A stretch of DNA of 64,000 bases from Bdellovibrionales bacterium (lineage in GTDB: Bacteria > Bdellovibrionota > Bdellovibrionia > Bdellovibrionales > Bdellovibrionaceae): contig JAFEAQ010000006.1 of the NCBI GenBank assembly GCA_018266295.1, positions 310,001 to 374,000 of the forward strand. Direction: 5' to 3'. Below are positions 12,731 through 22,109 of the stretch, one piece after another. Numbering within the stretch: the stretch's first letter is position 1; each line of letters starts with the position of its first letter. Under the pieces are notes generated by a model that saw only the letters and a list, made by a program, of their open reading frames with translations, was not told the DNA's origin and ran no database searches. The translations under genes and the position numbers were made by a program.

Positions 12731-12783
12731 TTTTTTCTTTCGTGCGGTCCGCCCGCGTGCGTGAGTACTGGCTCCGCACTTCT

Positions 12784-12877
12784 TCCTCCGTCCGTGCTAG
12801 CTGCCGCCGGCGTTCGTCCATCCATGGGAATCGAGGACCTATCCTCGAGCTCCAGTAAGTCCGGCCATCCGGGCCGG
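12784..12877. repeat. Left REP-like palindrome cluster beside RAYT gene
   Basis: Holds one arm of a 13-bp perfect inverted repeat (TCCTCCGTCCGTG, 12784-12796) whose other arm is at 13538-13550, on the far side of the transposase gene. It also holds two local palindromes: TCGAGGA-CCTA-TCCTCGA (12831-12848) and CCGGCC-ATCCG-GGCCGG (12861-12877). The second may also act as a terminator for the synthase gene, though only a short T run follows. Paired palindromes around a RAYT gene are the known arrangement for REP elements. Confidence 0.6.
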
Positions 12878-12924
12878 CCTTTCGGCATTCAGTAATGACT
12901 TTCTCTCCAAAGCATTTACAAGAA

Positions 12925-13440
12925 TCAAAGTACGTTCTTCGGCAGATGTTTATGTGAGCTTTTGGCTTTCTTTTTTCTCACGAACAGTCCGCGTCCTTCT
13001 AAATCGTTGAGTTCGTGATACTTGATCACAGTTTTAAACTGCTTTCCCCAGGATAAAATCTTAGTAAAGGGGCGAAGGTCAAAAAGGCCTTTTAAGGATT
13101 TTCCTTTTAGCTTTGAAAGTAGGCTTACAAGAAGTGATGTGATGGTTCTGATAAATGCTAAATAAGCTTCACGCGATGGAAGTTTAATCAGCAAATGAAT
13201 GTGTGACCAGTTAAGTGAAATCTCGTAGAGCTTTATCCCATACTTTTCTGCATGAGATTTTATCAAAGACTCAATTTTTCTATTCCCAAGAGCAAAACAA
13301 GAACTCCCAGTACTTTTTAAAATGAGATGAATAGGATTTTTTACTGATAGAGGTCTTGCAGTTTTTCGTTTGCCAGCAAGTAAGCTTCCGCCAAATTCTT
13401 TTTTATAATCTTTGATAAAACCAAAGCCCGTCTGTCTCAT
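12925..13440 (-). CDS. RAYT (REP-associated Y1 tyrosine transposase, IS200/IS605 superfamily)
   Basis: A single-strand DNA transposase of the HUH/Y1 class. The metal-binding HUH motif is His80-Ile-His82 in NWSHIHLLIKL, and Tyr141 in KTVIKYHEL is the candidate nucleophile. Length 171 is a little longer than TnpA of IS200 and fits the RAYT group, which mobilises REP palindromes rather than itself. The gene is richer in A and T than the genes on both sides, lacks any partner such as tnpB, and lies between inverted repeats and palindromes (12784-12877 and 13508-13556). It reads toward the pseudouridine synthase gene. It is intact as far as can be seen. Confidence 0.85.
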   Translation of the reverse strand: MRQTGFGFIKDYKKEFGGSLLAGKRKTARPLSVKNPIHLILKSTGSSCFALGNRKIESLIKSHAEKYGIKLYEISLNWSHIHLLIKLPSREAYLAFIRTITSLLVSLLSKLKGKSLKGLFDLRPFTKILSWGKQFKTVIKYHELNDLEGRGLFVRKKKAKSSHKHLPKNVL

Positions 13441-13507
13441 AAAACCCCCGATGAATATTCCCTACTATACACCCTCTAAAAAAATCATTCCCCTCTACAT
13501 CGCCTGG

Positions 13508-13556
13508 CCGACCACGATGGTCGGACAGCCCCGTTCTCACGGACGGAGGACCATCG
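13508..13556. repeat. Right REP-like palindrome cluster beside RAYT gene
   Basis: Contains CCGACCA-CGA-TGGTCGG (13508-13524, perfect 7-bp stem), then CACGGACGGAGGA (13538-13550), the reverse complement of 12784-12796. The octamers CGATGGTC (13515-13522) and GACCATCG (13549-13556) can also pair, giving an alternative larger hairpin. Lies 67 bases upstream of the RAYT start codon. Confidence 0.6.
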
Positions 13557-13874
13557 CGTAATCAAGCGACTGGGCGAGCATGCACACCTCACCGCAAACC
13601 ACAGAAAAGAAAATCCCTCTCCACAAAATCAGAGAAACTTATAACACGATTTTTTAGAGTGAATTCCCAAGCGCAAACCTAACGCAATTCAAATCACTCG
13701 CGAGAGCGCGTAATACCTTCGCCCCGCAGAGATCTCTTACAGAAATAAAAACACAAGGACCCGCACGTAATCTCGCGCCACAACCGAAGCCACCCACGCA
13801 AAAATCACGTCAATGCTAATTTAAATAATTCGTATTTCGGATAGCGTCGCTTTTCGCGGTGTCGCTCTGGAGGG
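13557..13874. other. Intergenic stretch without recognised genes
   Basis: No open frame with a credible start, no RNA gene and no long repeat are seen here. It separates the RAYT/REP unit from the terminator of the lipoprotein gene at 13943 and is probably transferred or decayed DNA. Confidence 0.5.
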
Positions 13875-13906
13875 AAATAAAAAACCCGCGTCTTTCGATG
13901 CGGGTT
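13875..13906 (-). terminator. Rho-independent terminator of the minus-strand lipoprotein gene
   Basis: AACCCGC (13883-13889) pairs with GCGGGTT (13900-13906), extended inward by GTC/GAT pairs around a TTTC loop. Read on the minus strand, the stem is followed by a T run (complement of 13875-13884). It lies about 37 bases beyond the stop at 13943. Confidence 0.8.
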
Positions 13907-13942
13907 CTTTGGATTGTTTTTCGATTGTTTCAGGCGCTGTGA

Positions 13943-15289
13943 TTACCAGATGTTGTATTTGTAGTTGCTCTTACCTGTGTTGTACTTGTACGGATTTTTT
14001 GTGTTGTACTTGCCACCGTTGTTGTTTTGTTGTTGGTTGCAGTCGCTGTAGTTCCACTTGTAGCACCATTTGCCACCTTTGTACTGCCAGCAGTTCTTCC
14101 ACCAGTGAAGTGGGCGGCATTTGCGGTGATTGTGGTGGTGACCGTGGCACTTCGCTTTACCCTTCAAGCAGTAGTCGATCACGACTGTTGCACCTGCAGG
14201 GATCGGGCTAGTGACTGTGACTACGTTACCTTCGATTGTGAACGTTGCAGCGACGCCGTTAACAGTTACTTTTACAGTGCTTGGATCCACATTATCGTGA
14301 GTCAATTCGAACTGAGTCTGGATTGAAGAACCTTGACCAGCCAACTCCGCGATGGAAGCCAAACCGTCAGAGATATCATCGTGAGCGATGTCGATTGCAA
14401 CACCTGGGCTCAAAGCTACCATGTCGATGTAACCGTAACCGATTTCTTTACCTGCTGGAGCCGGAGAATCAACATAAGTGATTGCAGAAACTTGCAAGTC
14501 TTGTGAACCCTTCAACACATGCAGACGATTTGTCAAACCTGCAGCCGTCAAACCTTCACAGTCACGGATGCGAGCGTCGATTTTAACTGGATCTGTTTCA
14601 GCTGGAACACCTGCTGGGATTGCAGCACAGATGTCACGGCGGTCCCCGATGAACACAACTCCAAGAGCAGCGTCAGCGCGGAAGAAACCAAGACCTTGTG
14701 ATTCAGAAAGCAATGCTGGAGTCGTGATACCGTTGAAGAGTGAGAACATGCCCTCTTCACCGCCACCAGAATCTGGATCAGCAACTACTTGAGTCAGCTT
14801 TTGAGACAAGTAAGTTTGGATGTCAGCATTAGACAATTCAGAAGATTTCAAAACGATGGGCTCAGAAGCTGCGCGGTACAAGCGGCCTGACCAGCTTGAA
14901 GTGCTACCGTGTGAAAGCATCACAGCGATATTAAAGTCAGCTGTTGGCGGCAATGTTTGAACGAAAGCATCAATTTCTGAAGCGATGAAGGCTCTTTGTT
15001 CAGCGATAGAGTCTGAAGTTTGAAGTACGAAAAGAACGTCTACTTTACCAGTAGGGTTTGAAGCTACTGTATAAGTGTCTGTGAAACATTTCTCTGAATT
15101 CTGCTTGCAAGTGTGTTTGATTCTGCTGCTAACAGTTTTCGTTTCGCTAACGACTCCTGCGACGCTGGCGTCATCAATGACTTGTGTGGATTGAGCGTCT
15201 GAACCGCCCTTTGCGCAACCGATCATGCTTAAAGCAAAACCGATGATCATGAATACATTTGAAAGTCCGAAGCTTTGTGTGCCTCTCAT
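13943..15289 (-). CDS. Lipoprotein with degenerate vWA-like domain and Cys/His/Trp/Tyr-rich tail
   Basis: 448 residues from ATG 15289, which follows GGAGG at 7 bases. A lipobox (SMIGC) ends the signal peptide. From about residue 85 a von Willebrand A-like fold is suggested by VDVLFVLQTSDSIAE, but the metal-site motif DxSxS reads QTSDS, so the first Asp is missing. A beta domain follows (about 320-375, ending VVIDYCLKG). The last 67 residues are low-complexity and full of Cys, His, Trp, Tyr, Asn and Lys, with blocks such as CHGHHHNHRKC and NYKYNIW. The order (vWA region, then a small beta domain ending near ..DY) matches the C-terminus of the larger lipoprotein upstream, so the two look paralogous. 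Function unknown, presumably at the cell surface or in the periplasm. Confidence 0.8.
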   Translation of the reverse strand: MRGTQSFGLSNVFMIIGFALSMIGCAKGGSDAQSTQVIDDASVAGVVSETKTVSSRIKHTCKQNSEKCFTDTYTVASNPTGKVDVLFVLQTSDSIAEQRAFIASEIDAFVQTLPPTADFNIAVMLSHGSTSSWSGRLYRAASEPIVLKSSELSNADIQTYLSQKLTQVVADPDSGGGEEGMFSLFNGITTPALLSESQGLGFFRADAALGVVFIGDRRDICAAIPAGVPAETDPVKIDARIRDCEGLTAAGLTNRLHVLKGSQDLQVSAITYVDSPAPAGKEIGYGYIDMVALSPGVAIDIAHDDISDGLASIAELAGQGSSIQTQFELTHDNVDPSTVKVTVNGVAATFTIEGNVVTVTSPIPAGATVVIDYCLKGKAKCHGHHHNHRKCRPLHWWKNCWQYKGGKWCYKWNYSDCNQQQNNNGGKYNTKNPYKYNTGKSNYKYNIW

Positions 15290-15527
15290 TTTTGGCCTCC
15301 TACCGTTACTAACCGTTACGATAGAAGTACAGAGCAAGGGGGGTGCCACCGGGACATTCCGGGCGCTTTCCAGCTTAATTCCACATAAAGTTGCTTACTT
15401 TGTCTAAACAAATGACAACTGCCGGGCCAAAAACGGTTTTTCCCGGTAGCAGTGACGAATATAGGTATGTCTCAGAGTGAGAACGGGCCCCTGGAGAGAT
15501 CCAAAGCCCGCCTCTATATATTAGGTA

Positions 15528-18500
15528 TTAGTATTGGTAGTCGACTTTGATCTCTGTGCCCACTGAAGGAGGCGCATCGAATACGACCTTATTGCCAATG
15601 ACTGTATAACCGATCGTTTGAGCTGGTGTGAAAGTCACCTGAACGGAGCCAGCCACCGGCGTATGAGCGAGCTCCACGGAGTTTGTAAGCGTTCTTACGC
15701 TCTCCCCGATGCTCTTAAGCGTTACAGAGTAGTCCGGCGCACAGATACTTGTGCTGAAACCACCCGTGAGGTTCACCGTCTGGTCGATCAAATCGCCGTA
15801 GAAGCTGAAACCACCGCTGCCGACTCGCATTGTATCAAGACAAGTCGAATCGCCTGGTTTCACGATAATGCTATAAACCTTCAACTTTTTGCCAGTAGTG
15901 CCCCAGTTGTTATTAAACGCAGATACCAACTGAGCCGGACGGTCTTTATAAGTCGCACCACCCGTTTGTCTTTCATCGGCGTCACTGAGAATCACGATGG
16001 CAAGATCCGAATCCTGACGGAAGAATCCGTTATTATCTGAGTTGAACTTATTCATGGCCGTCGTCGCAGAAAGTAACGGTTCACTCGCACCCGATGGGCA
16101 AGTCCCTGTATTCAAGCAACCCGCAGTCTCTGGACGCTGGATCGAGTTGTTAAACACAGTGCTGTAGTTCGGTACTGACGGAGTCAAAATCTTGCTATTG
16201 AAACCAGTCATTGTCAGCAATGAACCGCAGATACCGTAAGGACCTGTACTGCAATCCGTTGTCGTAATACCGATCTGCCAATCGATGGATTTCAACTCTG
16301 TTGCAAAGCCTGAGAACTTCGTACCCAATGAAGCCTGCTTAGGATCCATTGAAGCCGAGTTATCATCGATGAACAAGATATCGATCTTACCGAAAGAAGC
16401 GTCACTGATGAATGTTTCAGAAGCACCATCAGATTCACGTCTATAAGTCGCAGTCACTTGACCGACGTTACCCGCAGCGTCTGTTTGTTTCGCTGTGATA
16501 GACTTCGTGCCAAGTCCGGCTGTGAAAGTCACCCCAATTGAGAACGCACCCGCCGTACAAGCGCCGCTGGTGCTTGTGATGTCGCCAGTGAGAGAGACTG
16601 TCAGACCCGTTTCGCAAGTTCCTTTCAAAGTCACTGCAATTGGAACTGCAGTGCCTGGAACTGGATCAGTGATAGTGATAACAGGCGCTGCAGTATCGCG
16701 CATAAAGCTGCGAGAGGCTTGACCCACGTTACCGGCAGCGTCTGTTTGAGTTGCTGTGACTACTTTAGCGCCGTCGCCTGAAGACGCGCTGACGTTTGCA
16801 GAGTATGCACTGCTTGTACAAGCCACTGTCACTGGGCTTGCAAGGCCGGCACCAGCCAACACAACGTTGAAACCCGTTTCACAAGCACCTTGAACTACGA
16901 AGCTTGCGCCCACATAGCTGTTAGCCGCTGGTGAAGTGATTGTGACGATTGGTGGATCTATATCACGAACAAAGTTACGTGAACTTGTACCAACGTTGCC
17001 AACAGCATCCGTTTGAGTTGCTGTGACCGCTTTAGTGCCGCTACCCGCAGTGAATAGGATATCACCTGCGAAGACACCGCTCGCGCAAGCCACCACAACA
17101 GGAGTCGCAACACCTGAGCCCGCAAGTGTCACGTTCAAGCCCGTTTCACAAGTACCACTGACATTGAGACCGTCTTTAGCCACAGTGCCTTCAGCGGGAG
17201 CTGTGATCGCCACTGCTGGAGGAGTCGCATCTTTATTATAGTTACCAGTCACTTGAGTGCTGTTCCCCGCACCGTCTGTCTCAGTCACAACAACTGTTTT
17301 AGCACCGTCGTTGTCGCTGAAAGTGATGGTTGAAGAGTAAGTCCCGTTCACACAAGTCGTCGAAGACGCACTTGCAACGCCAGAGCCTGAGAAATTCACA
17401 GTCAGACCTGTTTCACATGTACCAGTAATCGTAAGACCTGTACGGCCGGTAGTTCCGTTAGCTGGGTTTGTGATAGTCAATACTGGGGGTGTTGTATCAC
17501 GGAGATATGTTTTAGAAGCTGTCGCTGTATTACCGGCGCCATCTGTCTGCTTCGCAGTGACTACTTTCGTGCCGTCGCCATTAGAAACAGTCACGTTGGC
17601 AGAGTATGAACCAGAAGGACATGTCACGGTCACTTCAGCCGCAAGACCCGCACCGCCAACAACGACATTTAAACCCGTTTCACAAGCACCTTGAACTGTG
17701 AAGTTCGTTGGCAAGTATGTATTTGCCGCAGGCGAAGTGATTGTCACTGTTGGTGGAGTTGTATCGCTCACGAAAGTTCTAGAATCAGAACCCGTGTTAC
17801 CTGCCAAGTCAGTTTGTGAAGCCGTCACTGGTTTATTACCGCTGCCCGTGCTGAACACGATCGAAGCTGCGAAAGTACCTTGAGCAGAGCATGGAGTCAC
17901 AACATTTGCTGAAACCCCTGTTCCTGACAGGGTCACATTCAAGCCCGCTTCACAAGTACCGGCTACATCAAGACCTGATTGGCCTGTTGTGCCTGCATCT
18001 GGCGAAGTGAATTTCACCACTGGAGGTGTTGAGTCACGCAAATAAGAGCCATCCGCTGTCGAAACGTTGCCAGCAGCATCCACTTCTTTTGCATTTACTG
18101 CCTTAGCACCGTCACCGGCACTCAAAGCAAGAGTGATTGTATAAGTACCGCCCGAGCTACAAACCACAGAACCTGCATTGGCAATGCCTGCGCCCGTGAA
18201 ATTGATAGTCAGACCCGCCTCACACGCACCTGTCAAAGTCACAGAGGTATTGACAATCGTGCCGTTGGCCGGAGAAGCAATAGTCAATTTTGGCGGCAAT
18301 GTATCGCGCAAGAATGTGCGTGATGTAGAACCGGTGTTACCGGCAGCATCCGTTTGCGATGCGATGACCTCTTTGTTGCCATCAAGCGGAGAAGTCGTCA
18401 CCATTGCAGAGAATGTACCCGCAGCACAAGTCGCCGTCGCTGTCGGCAAGATTCCGCCGCCAGAGAGCTGAACCATCAGACCCGCTTCACAAGTCCCAGT

Positions 18501-19772
18501 GACTGTGAAAGAAGAGCCCACATAAGTACCGGCAGCCGGGCTTGTGAAAGCCAACACCGGAGCGATTGTATCAACCATGTAATTTTGGTTTGCAGTACCG
18601 ACGTTACCGGCAGCATCTGTTTGAGTTGCGACAAGAGTCTTAGTCCCTTGACCTGAAGTGATTGCTGTTGTCAGAGTCCAAGCACCGCTTGAGCAAGCCA
18701 CTGTTTTAGCGGCACTCAAGACAGAGCCAGACAAGACCACGTTAATACCTGTTTCACACGCTCCAGAGAAGGTGCTGTTTGCAGGCAAGTAAGCATTTGC
18801 CAAAGGTGAAGTGATTGTCACTTTTGGAGCGATTGTATCTTTGATTGTATTTTTGGAATCAAGACCGAAATTGCCGGCAAGGTCGACTTGGTAAACTTGG
18901 AGTTTTACCGGACCATCCGCACCCGGCATAGGAATGCTGGCTGTGAAGGTTCCATTTGTACAAGGCACATCCGGAGCAAGGCCTGAACGGAACTCCCCGA
19001 GTCCCACTGGCAAACCGGATTCACAAGTACCGGAAACGGTCATAGCAGAAAGATTTGTAATTGCAGGAATTGCAGAGGTGATTTTAACAGCTGGCGGAGT
19101 TGTATCAATGCTCATCGCTGTTGAATCTTTACCTTGGTTACCGGCGCGGTCGATTTGGCCGGCGATGATGTCTTTAGTACCATCGCCGCTGCTTGTTTGA
19201 ATTGTGGCGCTGAATTGACCGTTTTCACAGTCCGTAGAAATTGGAGTTACGATACCAGGACCATAAATCAAAACAGGCAAACCTGTTTCACAAGTTCCGT
19301 TGATGACAGAGGTCACAACGTTGGTCGCTAAAGAAGAAGCGCCGTTAGTGATTTTAACTGCTGGAGGTGTTGTATCTTTTTGAACGCAAAGACGGTCGAC
19401 AACATCTGTTCCATCGCTTGCAGTTTTCTGAGTTACTACGAGGTCTTTTTGACCATCACCGCTTGAAAGCGTGTAAGTCGTTGAGAAACTACCGGCATTA
19501 CAAGCCACCGTTGTTGGGGCACCTTCCATGCCCTCTTTAATATCTACCGGAACGCCAGTTACACAGCTACCTGTGACAACAACTGTATTGGTCGCAACTG
19601 TATCAATGGTTGGATAAAGAATGATAGGACCATCATTCAACCCGAACTTCGCTGAAGTATCTGGAGCTTTACAGGCGACATCCTGCCCAAGGAAAGTGAG
19701 TTTAGAGCACGCCGTTGTCGTCATCAAAGCTGTTAAGCCAAAAAGTAGCGTGAGTGTTTTAATTTGAACCAT
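15528..19772 (-). CDS. Giant lipoprotein: 12 Ig-like repeats plus C-terminal vWA domain
   Basis: 1414 residues. A signal peptide ends in a lipobox-like TTAC. Residues about 40-1115 are 12 tandem repeats of about 85-95 residues, each beginning with a pattern like PPxVTITSP, carrying G-[TA]-C-E-[TS]-G-L and a second Cys about 25 residues later, and ending AGNxxxxxxxxxxDTTPP. This resembles bacterial Ig-like adhesin modules. The last 287 residues hold a von Willebrand A-like domain with an intact DxSxS metal motif (Asp1137 in IDDNSASMD) and ILSDADER. Such proteins are usually surface adhesins or stalks that present a binding head. No anchor other than the lipid is seen. Downstream (15289) lies a smaller relative. 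The gene is AT-poor like its neighbours, so recent transfer is not suggested. Confidence 0.88.
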   Translation of the reverse strand: MVQIKTLTLLFGLTALMTTTACSKLTFLGQDVACKAPDTSAKFGLNDGPIILYPTIDTVATNTVVVTGSCVTGVPVDIKEGMEGAPTTVACNAGSFSTTYTLSSGDGQKDLVVTQKTASDGTDVVDRLCVQKDTTPPAVKITNGASSLATNVVTSVINGTCETGLPVLIYGPGIVTPISTDCENGQFSATIQTSSGDGTKDIIAGQIDRAGNQGKDSTAMSIDTTPPAVKITSAIPAITNLSAMTVSGTCESGLPVGLGEFRSGLAPDVPCTNGTFTASIPMPGADGPVKLQVYQVDLAGNFGLDSKNTIKDTIAPKVTITSPLANAYLPANSTFSGACETGINVVLSGSVLSAAKTVACSSGAWTLTTAITSGQGTKTLVATQTDAAGNVGTANQNYMVDTIAPVLAFTSPAAGTYVGSSFTVTGTCEAGLMVQLSGGGILPTATATCAAGTFSAMVTTSPLDGNKEVIASQTDAAGNTGSTSRTFLRDTLPPKLTIASPANGTIVNTSVTLTGACEAGLTINFTGAGIANAGSVVCSSGGTYTITLALSAGDGAKAVNAKEVDAAGNVSTADGSYLRDSTPPVVKFTSPDAGTTGQSGLDVAGTCEAGLNVTLSGTGVSANVVTPCSAQGTFAASIVFSTGSGNKPVTASQTDLAGNTGSDSRTFVSDTTPPTVTITSPAANTYLPTNFTVQGACETGLNVVVGGAGLAAEVTVTCPSGSYSANVTVSNGDGTKVVTAKQTDGAGNTATASKTYLRDTTPPVLTITNPANGTTGRTGLTITGTCETGLTVNFSGSGVASASSTTCVNGTYSSTITFSDNDGAKTVVVTETDGAGNSTQVTGNYNKDATPPAVAITAPAEGTVAKDGLNVSGTCETGLNVTLAGSGVATPVVVACASGVFAGDILFTAGSGTKAVTATQTDAVGNVGTSSRNFVRDIDPPIVTITSPAANSYVGASFVVQGACETGFNVVLAGAGLASPVTVACTSSAYSANVSASSGDGAKVVTATQTDAAGNVGQASRSFMRDTAAPVITITDPVPGTAVPIAVTLKGTCETGLTVSLTGDITSTSGACTAGAFSIGVTFTAGLGTKSITAKQTDAAGNVGQVTATYRRESDGASETFISDASFGKIDILFIDDNSASMDPKQASLGTKFSGFATELKSIDWQIGITTTDCSTGPYGICGSLLTMTGFNSKILTPSVPNYSTVFNNSIQRPETAGCLNTGTCPSGASEPLLSATTAMNKFNSDNNGFFRQDSDLAIVILSDADERQTGGATYKDRPAQLVSAFNNNWGTTGKKLKVYSIIVKPGDSTCLDTMRVGSGGFSFYGDLIDQTVNLTGGFSTSICAPDYSVTLKSIGESVRTLTNSVELAHTPVAGSVQVTFTPAQTIGYTVIGNKVVFDAPPSVGTEIKVDYQY
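16430..19655 (-). repeat. Tandem coding repeats, 12 copies of about 270 bp
   Basis: In-frame repeats encoding the Ig-like modules of the 1414-residue lipoprotein. Copies differ by many substitutions at the protein level, yet blocks such as GTCETGLTV and DAAGN recur closely. Boundaries are approximate. Confidence 0.8.
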
Positions 19773-20153
19773 GGACGTCCCCCGTAGACCTAGTCAAATC
19801 TAAGCAATGCAAAGATGGGTCCATCCGGACATCGTCGTGTCAACATATCAAGTCTTGAGAAAGACTGAGTATTCTCATTGTGAAATTTTGAGTTTTTTGC
19901 GCAAACAATGACGATCACCAAGGTTACAACACTTTTTATGATCTTCGTTATGTTGCACGCAATCTCGAGCAAGAACTTTGCTCCTTCATGACCACTAGGA
20001 GCGTTCCTAAACAGGCAACATTTTCGCAGACCTAGACCTCGTCGTCAGCACCGAGCACCGATTGGCATCAAAGATGCATTTTCAAATCGCATGTCACAGG
20101 AAATCGTCAAAACTTTTAGCATCTTTTAAGATGCGCACTCTGGCAGGCGCAAT
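19773..20153. other. Intergenic region between protease terminator and giant lipoprotein
   Basis: No credible gene is seen. It should hold the promoter of the minus-strand lipoprotein gene (start 19772). A short dyad GCATCTT-TT-AAGATGC lies at 20119-20134. A 60-codon minus-strand frame at 19790-19972 shows no gene-like composition and no ribosome site and was not called. Confidence 0.5.
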
Positions 20154-20185
20154 AAAAAAACCGGAGTCTTTCGACTCCGGTTTTT
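20154..20185. terminator. Bidirectional rho-independent terminator
   Basis: CCGGAGTC (20161-20168), loop TTTC, GACTCCGG (20173-20180), flanked by an A run on the left and a T run on the right, so it can work on both strands. On the minus strand it ends the protease-PilZ gene, whose stop lies at 20217. Confidence 0.88.
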
Positions 20186-20216
20186 GGTGTTATTTCACTC
20201 TGTGGTTAGAGGCTGA

Positions 20217-22109
20217 TTATACCTTCATCAAACCTGCAGTCCATTTCTGGATCATAGCCAGAGTTGACTGCTCGGCACCCGCGAACTGAACCCCGTAAGA
20301 CTGGTTCGCTTCGCTCCACACGACTTGACCTGTGACCTCGACGAGATCTCGGCCATCTGGGCTTGCGATCTTCATAGTGATAATTCCGCCTTTTTCGAGG
20401 GCCTCGTCGGCACTGAACGACGCACCACCGAGGGAGATCGTTTTGAGTGAACCGGAAAGCTCGCGGTCTCCGACCATGAGTCGGATGTCGGAATCCATTT
20501 TGAAGCGCTCGAACTTACGACGGCCTGCTGGATCTGCCGCTTTTTGTTTTTCCATCGCGCGCTGTCTGAGAACAGTCCACACGATCAATGGAATCATCAG
20601 CAAGCCCGCAAGAATGCCGGCGCCGCTGAAGCCGTCTTTATTATTGCCCGGGCCCTTCAACAAAGCCGTTGAAACCATCCCGCAACCCGCTTTAGGCGGA
20701 GTCGCTTCCGACGCTAGACCACGGGCATCGGCTTGGTAAACCGGAGAATAATCCGGCTGACTTGCCTGCACATTGGCTTGAGCTTTGGCCTCAACGATGA
20801 GGTTGTAAGAGTTAATGCGAGCTGAAGTCGAAACTTTTCCAAGCAAGCTTGAAATCGCGGTCGCCTTCGCCAGCATGATGTCTTTAATTTGATAGCCCGT
20901 GAGGAACGGAGCCTCGCGCATGGCAAGAGCTGCCATCCCCGCGACAAATGGAGTTGCCATACTTGTACCGGACATAGTGCCCGTACGGTTATTCGGCAAT
21001 GTACTCAAGATCAAAACCCCTGGGCTGGCAATTTGGACTGAGCGAGAACCGAAGTTTGAGAAGCTTGCCAAGTAGTCATAATCCGTGGTCGCAGCCACAG
21101 ATACGTTTGAAGGAACGTCATAGTTTGCCGGATACATCGAAACAGAATCGTTGTTCTTGCCGTTATTACCCGCCGCTGTTGCAATGAACATACGGTTTGA
21201 GTAAGCAAAAGTCAGAGCTTCATGGAGGGCGCGGCTATAAGACGAACCACCCCAAGAGTTGTTGATCACGCGCGCACCGTTATTCACGGCATAGTAAATC
21301 GCGCGGATGGCATTTGAAGTGGTGCCCGAGCCGTTTGCATCGAGGAATTTCAAAGGCATGATGCGCATTTTCGCAGTTTCGGTAATTGTCGGCGCGAAGA
21401 TATTGAGACTCGTTCCAACGATAATACCAGCCACGTGGGTACCATGACCGTCGTCATCATAGAAGTCCGGCGAATTGCTGATGAAATTCCAGCCGTTGAT
21501 GTCATCGATATAACCGTTATAGTCGTCGTCTACGCCGTTCAAAGCTTCGCGAGTATTCACCCACAATGCATTTGAGTTCTGGAACACCGGATGATTCTTA
21601 TCAAGGCCCGTATCGACGATTGCTACGATCGGACGGTAGGTTGACGAAGACGATTCGATGGCCCAAGCTTCAGCAACTTTCGTTTGAGCGCCGTTTTGAG
21701 AATAGCTCGTCGACGAAGCCGACACTTGATCTAACGCTTGAACTTCACCGGCTTCGTAAACCTTGTCAGGGGCACCGAGGCCCGCACGGTCATCGAAGTC
21801 TGATTTCTTAAAGACAAAGTTAGGCTCAATATACTCAACATCTGGATCGTTTGAGAGCTCCTCAATCGAAGTCGTATCTCCCGTTCCGCCCTTCAACGAG
21901 ATATGAACCATGTTCATCTGCGGAAAGGAGCCCTTCATGTTGATTTTATTAGAGACCTTATTGAGTGCACCCGAGGGCGCCGCCATCGGTTTGAACTTCA
22001 CGATATACTCTCCCGGGACCGCTTCCGGACCAGAAGATTGGGCATTGGCCATAGAAAGGCCGACAAAAAACGCAAATATCGTTGTAAGCATTGCCGAATG
22101 ACTATCCAC
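20217..22109 (-). CDS. Subtilisin-like (S8) serine protease fused through a membrane helix to a PilZ domain
   Basis: 630 residues from GTG 22109 (GGGAG five bases upstream). Order: signal peptide (1-23), I9-like propeptide (about 30-100, EYIVKF... to VEYIEPNF), S8 protease with Asp166 (AIVDTG), His222 (GHGTHVAG), Asn315 (AAGNNG) and Ser383 (GTSMATP), a linker with two Cys near 476, one membrane helix (about 496-514), a basic stop-transfer segment, then a PilZ domain (about 529-615). PilZ shows RKFER (Arg531, Arg535), the RxxxR cyclic-di-GMP motif, and TISLGG in place of [D/N]xSxxG. The protease should face the periplasm and PilZ the cytosol. The GCG...helix...basic pattern also recalls MYXO-CTERM-like sorting tails, but those end right after the basic residues. 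Confidence 0.9.
   Translation of the reverse strand: MDSHSAMLTTIFAFFVGLSMANAQSSGPEAVPGEYIVKFKPMAAPSGALNKVSNKINMKGSFPQMNMVHISLKGGTGDTTSIEELSNDPDVEYIEPNFVFKKSDFDDRAGLGAPDKVYEAGEVQALDQVSASSTSYSQNGAQTKVAEAWAIESSSSTYRPIVAIVDTGLDKNHPVFQNSNALWVNTREALNGVDDDYNGYIDDINGWNFISNSPDFYDDDGHGTHVAGIIVGTSLNIFAPTITETAKMRIMPLKFLDANGSGTTSNAIRAIYYAVNNGARVINNSWGGSSYSRALHEALTFAYSNRMFIATAAGNNGKNNDSVSMYPANYDVPSNVSVAATTDYDYLASFSNFGSRSVQIASPGVLILSTLPNNRTGTMSGTSMATPFVAGMAALAMREAPFLTGYQIKDIMLAKATAISSLLGKVSTSARINSYNLIVEAKAQANVQASQPDYSPVYQADARGLASEATPPKAGCGMVSTALLKGPGNNKDGFSGAGILAGLLMIPLIVWTVLRQRAMEKQKAADPAGRRKFERFKMDSDIRLMVGDRELSGSLKTISLGGASFSADEALEKGGIITMKIASPDGRDLVEVTGQVVWSEANQSYGVQFAGAEQSTLAMIQKWTAGLMKV

Follow-up and report, generated by a model that had tools for sequence, protein, structure and literature searches.

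The closest described counterparts of the protein reported here are the MIDAS (metal ion-dependent adhesion site) adhesins of Bdellovibrio bacteriovorus. One of them, Bd0875, is located at the predator-prey junction, is detected on the cell surface and needs its MIDAS Asp for normal invasion, according to the portions of Tyson et al. on which we draw, where surface location and adhesion are demonstrated for this family member alone (Tyson 2024, PMC11003981). Bd0875 and Bd1483 both carry a lipoprotein signal and a vWA domain inserted in a small beta domain, and the same authors liken MIDAS function to that of TRAP and MIC2 (PMC11003981). We analysed a stretch of 64,000 nucleotides (the window) from a Bdellovibrionales bacterium (assembly GCA_018266295.1, contig JAFEAQ010000006.1, positions 310,001 to 374,000), whose minus strand holds at 15528-19772 a single open frame of 1414 aa, here called the stalk gene. 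A preliminary description made from the letters alone had seen in it a lipid-anchored Ig-like stalk of 12 repeats with a vWA head, and this layout is borne out by the lipoprotein signal, the 12 modules and the head; the adhesin-like design that it proposed is also supported. The protein is real and well formed, and it represents a known superfamily of adhesins in an uncommon form, on a stalk. We favour, with a probability of roughly 0.68, the reading that it would act as a long-reach, lipid-anchored, metal-dependent surface adhesin, most likely contacting bacteria in predation.

The head matches NF052240, the NCBIfam model of Bdellovibrio MIDAS adhesins, at E 4.5e-31 and 108 bits. This lies under the equivalog cut-off of 700 bits, and the best match of the genome to the same model is found elsewhere (G000:C11:832705, 389 bits); by its sequence, we assign the head to the Bdellovibrio MIDAS adhesin superfamily as a paralog and not as Bd0875 itself. 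The DxSxS metal site had been described as intact and it is so, with D1137, S1139 and S1141 in place; the remaining positions usual for a MIDAS are taken by T1172 and D1264. Among 40 aligned heads D1137, S1141, D1264, C1311 and C1344 are invariant, and S1139 and T1172 are kept in 38. In an AlphaFold2 (AF2) model of repeats 11 and 12 with the head (40 rows; mean pLDDT, the predicted local confidence score, 90.8), the strands at model residues 180-186 and 442-477 surround the vWA domain and form a small beta domain in which it is inserted. The head is thus a vWA domain with a metal site as first described, but not an isolated one, since the flanking strands complete the vWA-in-small-beta-domain unit of the MIDAS adhesins. 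Foldseek placed integrin beta chains first (E 3.5e-9, TM-score 0.30), and VIA-align superposed the head on the integrin alpha2 I domain with Z 15.0 over 192 residues (3.3 Å) and on integrin beta with Z about 14 over 236-240 residues, with a root-mean-square deviation (rmsd) of 6-8 Å and 11-16% identity. Alpha I domains and other vWA proteins score equal to integrin beta, the vWA domain alone scores as well, and no clear single family stands out for the head in the VIA list. Because these rows are tied, we claim only the vWA fold and a beta-I/hybrid-like arrangement; the predicted topology is integrin-beta-like, and no kinship with integrins is implied.

The stalk is built of repeats with a period of 88-90 aa, whose 12 GxC..G blocks span residues 68-1051. 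The motif had been given as GxCExGL; GxC..G is present in all 12 and an acidic residue in 11 (repeat 1 reads GSCVTG), while the residue after the second G proved variable. Protein identity among the repeats ranges from 20 to 65%, lowest for repeat 1. At the DNA level repeats 6/9 (58%), 7/10 (61%) and 8/11 (68%) are mutual best partners, a pattern that points to a past duplication of three repeats as one block. Pfam finds Big_6, Big_13 and Glucodextran_B in the protein, and the NCBIfam model NF033510 (Ca_tandemer) matches the stalk in 11 stretches with 156 bits, above its curated cut-off of 50 bits. A PDB sequence search with the repeats gave SiiE, Baps and Lap, and SiiE is also the best Foldseek match of the AF2 model of repeats 8 to 10 (pLDDT 97.9). 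A single module is closest in VIA to glucodextranase domain B (Z 12.7, 1.8 Å over 85 residues), and three modules together list Lap, MpIBP, SiiE and the neck of Aureispira GhpA, a protein that reportedly serves predation. The stalk repeats are SiiE/Ca-tandemer-type Ig modules. Repeat position 1 is D in 85 of the 85 rows with a letter there, position 75 is D in 93% of 135 and position 79 is N in 92% of 130; these residues would fit calcium bound between modules, and the stalk may owe part of its rigidity to the conserved Asp/Asn of this calcium-stabilised repeat family.

Each repeat carries a pair of cysteines, and the stalk holds 2.3% Cys against 1.1% in the other 35 open reading frames (ORFs) of the window longer than 250 aa. 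The second Cys had been placed about 25 residues after the first; it actually lies 21 residues on in 11 repeats and 19 in the last. Beyond these pairs there are C34 and C129, which flank module 1, and six Cys in the head. The pair had also been considered unusual for bacterial Ig-like arrays. This stands in comparison with solved relatives from other phyla, as neither place is a Cys in the three PDB alignments displayed (SiiE, Baps, Lap), but within Bdellovibrionota the pair is common to usual. That it might be peculiar to the stalk gene was considered and ruled out, both Cys being present in most related repeats across the phylum. With the two Cys columns masked in the profile, both Cys are found in 119 of 135 covered unique repeats, one in 13 and none in 3, in a set fetched with a Cys-containing query and with 8 further rows gapped at those columns. 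A second set, fetched with NF033510 over the whole phylum, shows the pair in these columns for 53 of 90 covered repeats, drawn from the 19 of 30 loci with a match (the 11 without one were dropped).

Under the Cys-blind profile, 129 of the 132 unique repeats in the relatives' loci hold exactly two Cys, two hold three, one holds four and none holds fewer; in the independently fetched NF033510 set all 64 unique repeats that passed the length and E-value filter hold exactly two, at the profile places or at others. From a Poisson null of equal Cys content, about 36 and 17 repeats with exactly two would be expected; the excess is not a clean probability because the repeats share ancestry. The pairs are kept while the remainder of the repeat sequence diverges, and one disulfide per stalk repeat is supported by this parity, as a prediction. 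The genome contains several DsbA homologs and gives no DsbB match at E 0.001; it also has a 409-aa frame with both VKOR and DsbA matches (G000:C15:35662-36801), likely a fused disulfide oxidase, and from the two together it follows that the genome has an oxidase pathway. The Cys-Ig module is general in the Bdellovibrionota lineage, under many different heads. Where an array lacks a MIDAS head, it ends in cytochrome c/DUF1592-type, FGE-sulfatase or LamG-like domains or in DUF5122 propellers (six proteins scanned). The genome of the window itself encodes a protein with four repeats of this kind (L045, 3919-7038), which by eye resembles cytochrome c/DUF1592.

We surveyed 140 genomes of the order for orthologs. 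A close match (E 1e-55) occurs in 33, and it runs through stalk and head in 5, namely the window's own genome (G000) and G048, G241, G232 and G211, the last four with 48-50% identity to the window's. The preliminary description had asked for a comparison of repeat number, and complete genes have 12 repeats in the window, 24 in G232 and 9 in G211; those of G048 (at least 6 repeats) and G241 (at least 4) are cut by contig ends. In the four relatives each module carries precisely two Cys, the sole exception being the first module of G211 with three. A short close head without a stalk is present as well in G232 and G241, so that the stalked gene is a separate gene in these two genomes. In the head tree the five stalked heads form one clade (99/99) inside a group of mostly stalkless short proteins, which argues for a single origin of the stalk-and-head unit. 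The five genes fall in three families of the order (f1, f4, f8), and no other searched genome of the window's own family matched through the stalk; horizontal transfer or repeated loss is therefore likely. A scan of genome contigs gave four loci with matches to the head only, and a plasmid search with three stalk repeats gave no match.

The mechanism that we propose is the following. The lipid would anchor the protein in the outer membrane, the oxidase pathway would close one disulfide in each stalk module and calcium would bridge neighbouring modules, giving a stiff rod of about 40-55 nm (at 3.5-4.5 nm per Ig module) able to carry the head beyond the cell envelope. There the MIDAS metal may bind an acidic group presented by a partner, whose surface is most likely that of another bacterium in predatory contact. 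Tension on the stalk could reach the vWA domain by way of the small hinge domain, as in integrins and as proposed for Bd0875, while the disulfides would keep the modules from unfolding. A role of the stalk as a spacer is supported, at the level of sequence, by the 9, 12 and 24 repeats of complete orthologs whose heads are 48-50% identical to that of the window. By analogy, prey would be the likeliest target; prey contact is our first guess because Bd0875 needs its MIDAS Asp for normal invasion.

Several points weigh against the reading of a lipid-anchored, prey-directed adhesin. The signal peptide ends in TTAC-22, with T instead of L at -3; this residue is atypical, TTAC fits the relaxed lipobox pattern, and the two full-length orthologs have VGTGC and LLVGC. 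The gene is accessory, being found in only 5 of 140 genomes. The shared ancestry of the repeats weakens the argument from Cys parity. Moreover, a MIDAS family member need not matter for predation, since in HD100 the deletion of MIDAS proteins caused no defect in three cases out of four (PMC11003981).

One alternative is a surface adhesin for attachment to biofilm, particles or sibling cells and not to prey. The patchy, accessory occurrence of the gene would suit it, as would the lack of a match in genome G036, which is similar in size to that of HD100, at the threshold of the ortholog search, and the solved stalk relatives SiiE, Baps, Lap and MpIBP serve attachment to hosts, biofilms or ice, judging in part from PDB entry titles. 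We nevertheless regard it as unlikely, as the studied relative of the head, Bd0875, acts at the prey junction (PMC11003981). A spacer or sensor facing the periplasm, whose head binds a partner in the envelope, is distinctly improbable. Outer-membrane lipoproteins of E. coli face inward by default, and other Cys-Ig arrays of the lineage carry cytochrome c/DUF1592, FGE-sulfatase or propeller domains; against this, the estimated length of a stalk of 12 modules, or 24 in one ortholog, exceeds the usual width of the periplasm, and Bd0875 was found on the surface (PMC11003981).

Instead of forming disulfides within modules, the repeat cysteines might also coordinate metal, cross-link molecules or serve as a redox switch. 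Both Cys do lie at strand ends in the AF2 model of repeats 8 to 10, where C28 ends strand B and C49 follows strand 4 in the turn before strand E. From this strand order the two should share the same pole of the sandwich, and nearly all repeats hold exactly two Cys, so we give such roles little credit. A further possibility is that the gene, carried along by a mobile islet, is decaying or not expressed and at present has no function. This would agree with its inserted block, with a Y1_Tnp-like ORF and a paralog lacking the metal site, but it is the hardest to believe, given the intact 1414-aa frame in which 24 of 24 paired Cys and all MIDAS residues are kept despite 20-65% repeat identity.

Regarding genome context, the genes ABC, MgtE, S8/PilZ and DUF502 are consecutive in three relatives (G036, G033, G001), where a gap of 25 to about 115 bp precedes the end of the S8/PilZ gene; only in G001 does RluA lie between MgtE and S8/PilZ. 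At that site all three lack the stalk gene, the diverged paralog and the Y1_Tnp-like ORF; in the window it is occupied by about 7.5 kb. A fourth relative, G010, has a different stretch of about 5.9 kb between MgtE and S8/PilZ (L185 1941-7785, G010:C32), with oxidoreductase-like and LysR-like ORFs by eye. We consider the block an accessory islet at a variable site because it is absent from three relatives and replaced by another insert in G010. The diverged paralog next to the stalk gene has lost the DxSxS motif and has a C-terminal tail rich in Cys, His, Tyr and Asn. A promoter and terminator scan, the source of the two hairpins in Table 1, gave site counts no higher than those of shuffles. 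On the other side, at 20217-22109 (minus strand), lies a subtilase that by eye seems to cross the membrane once and carries PilZ at its C terminus, an arrangement that apparently would put the protease outside and a c-di-GMP-type (cyclic di-GMP) domain inside. Whether the stalk gene, its diverged neighbour and this S8-PilZ protease form a conserved unit was addressed by neighbour probing, which ruled it out: of seven neighbour proteins compared with six relatives' loci (four with stalked orthologs), the diverged paralog alone gave matches, and these were to the heads. S8-PilZ is widespread, with a match at E 1e-60 in 124 of the 140 genomes. The coordinates are collected in Table 1.

Table 1. 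Features of the stalk gene and its surroundings (window positions), with proteins of related genomes in the last row (positions within each locus).
Feature	Position	Strand	Basis
Signal peptide and lipobox, residues 1-22 (lipidated Cys22)	19707..19772	-	sequence; lipobox also in both full-length orthologs
Stalk of 12 Cys-paired bacterial Ig-like repeats, residues 43-1113	16434..19646	-	Pfam Big_6/Big_13, NF033510, AF2 of repeats 8-10
Module 1 of the stalk (residues 43-132), a diverged base module bordered by the additional Cys pair C34/C129	19377..19646	-	
Head, MIDAS-family unit, residues 1114-1414	15531..16433	-	NF052240, AF2, paralogs and orthologs
Small beta domain, N-terminal part, residues 1114-1127	16392..16433	-	AF2 strands; Bd0875-like layout
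vWA domain, residues about 1128-1364	15681..16391	-	VIA-align to integrin alpha2 I domain
MIDAS DxSxS (D1137 N S1139 A S1141)	16350..16364	-	sequence; aligned heads
Small beta domain, C-terminal part, residues 1365-1414	15531..15680	-	AF2 strands; Bd0875-like layout
Block absent from the conserved gene order of three relatives (accessory islet)	12731..20216		locus comparison
IS200-like (Y1_Tnp) transposase-type ORF at the block edge	12925..13440	-	PF01797, E 2e-5, 25.1 bits against a cut-off of 23
Diverged MIDAS paralog directly downstream of the stalk gene (178 bp gap)	13943..15349	-	NF052240, E 2.4e-9
Terminator-like hairpin adjoining the diverged paralog	13883..13906	+	hairpin scan
Terminator-like hairpin, near-palindromic, between the S8-PilZ and stalk genes	20156..20185	+	hairpin scan
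Proteins with thrombospondin type-1 repeats and a MIDAS vWA domain	L084 3677-5446 (G054:C54); L080 4175-5569 (G052:C3); L161-L166; L168-L172		

Other MIDAS heads in the order are found on unrelated stalks rich in Cys. A survey of stalk length took in 51 complete ORFs that include a head, no two heads being identical, from the loci fetched up to then; the head is preceded by at most 110 aa in 22, by 111-250 in 6, by 251-500 in 13 and by more than 500 in 10. Many of the long ORFs show regular Cys spacing of other kinds, and some, such as L074, show no such pattern. MIDAS proteins of about 980 aa (L063, L059, L049, L058, L061, L062, L064) have Big_13-type modules with a Cys spacing of about 10/77; with several two-Cys Ig modules each, they are a second Cys-paired stalk type. 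The stalk of L072 has a spacing of 26/80. Six-Cys modules in L084 and L080 are thrombospondin type-1 repeats (TSRs) by Pfam (E 1.1e-42 and 8.4e-18), and L084 matches solved thrombospondin-1. TSP1_ADAMTS matches occur in 37 of the 140 genomes of the order against 0 of 14 controls, and TSR and MIDAS head stand in one ORF in 11 of the 20 TSR loci fetched, the other 9 having no head in the fetched stretch. Separately, L034 946-2448 (G020) has a MIDAS-like head with DxTxS, and its N-terminal part holds two Cys-rich repeats with no Pfam match. The window, Big_13 and TSR types fall in different parts of a tree of the head with its paralogs, and this placement suggests that MIDAS heads gained stalks independently. 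We tentatively picture in Bdellovibrionota a modular set of force-bearing adhesins, in which an integrin-beta-like MIDAS head was placed independently on at least four kinds of Cys-paired rod (Big_6-type Ig, Big_13-type Ig, the 26/80-spaced module and TSR), with reach set by repeat number (9 to 24), with TSR versions converging on TRAP/MIC2, and with the window gene as a horizontally moving, long-reach member. In the print literature, with few subscription papers covered, we found neither Ig-stalked MIDAS adhesins of Bdellovibrio nor TSR together with Bdellovibrio, and the word thrombospondin occurs 0 times in the Tyson 2024 paper (PMC11003981).

The MIDAS adhesins that aid prey entry by Bdellovibrio belong to a larger modular family whose members differ in the kind and length of stalk. 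This raises the question of whether stalk length or kind sets which prey the predator grips, or at what distance from the prey surface. The Cys-paired Ig module may be the general-purpose stable rod of the phylum. The most interesting lead lies outside the window, in the MIDAS heads on thrombospondin repeats of related genomes, which offer a parallel among bacteria to TRAP and MIC2, adhesins of parasites.

Compared with known systems, the window protein shares with Bd0875 and the other MIDAS adhesins of B. bacteriovorus the lipobox, the DxSxS vWA domain in a small beta domain made from both flanks and the head Cys pairs; in Bd0875 the lipobox leads straight into the small domain, whereas here 12 Ig modules lie between (PMC11003981). 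With SiiE and the Ca2+-stabilised Ig arrays (NF033510; PDB 2yn3, 7dm0, 6xi3, 4p99) the stalk has in common the tandem Ig modules, the conserved Asp near module borders and the closest solved folds. SiiE differs in being type I-secreted with a C-terminal signal (PMC6272769), while the window protein has an N-terminal lipoprotein signal and a vWA tip. The giant adhesins of Mobiluncus mulieris also present a long Ig stalk with covalent cross-links inside domains, which in our case are predicted; theirs are mostly ester and isopeptide bonds, joined by some disulfides, and the organism is Gram-positive (PMC10619420). The head as modelled resembles the integrin beta headpiece in having a vWA (beta-I) domain inserted in a beta-sandwich; the topology agrees, but the rmsd over both domains is high (6-8 Å, at 11-16% identity) and the vWA domain alone reaches equal scores. 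TRAP and MIC2 are invasion adhesins of malaria parasites and Toxoplasma, organisms which also glide and invade. They are anchored in another way and have no Ig stalk, and we do not claim common descent; like the window protein, they present a MIDAS vWA domain on an anchored adhesin. Apicomplexan TRAP proteins combine just these two domains, TSR and MIDAS vWA (PMC9019593), and the TSR, which Pfam does not find in the window protein, is common to TRAP/MIC2 and some relatives of the window protein.

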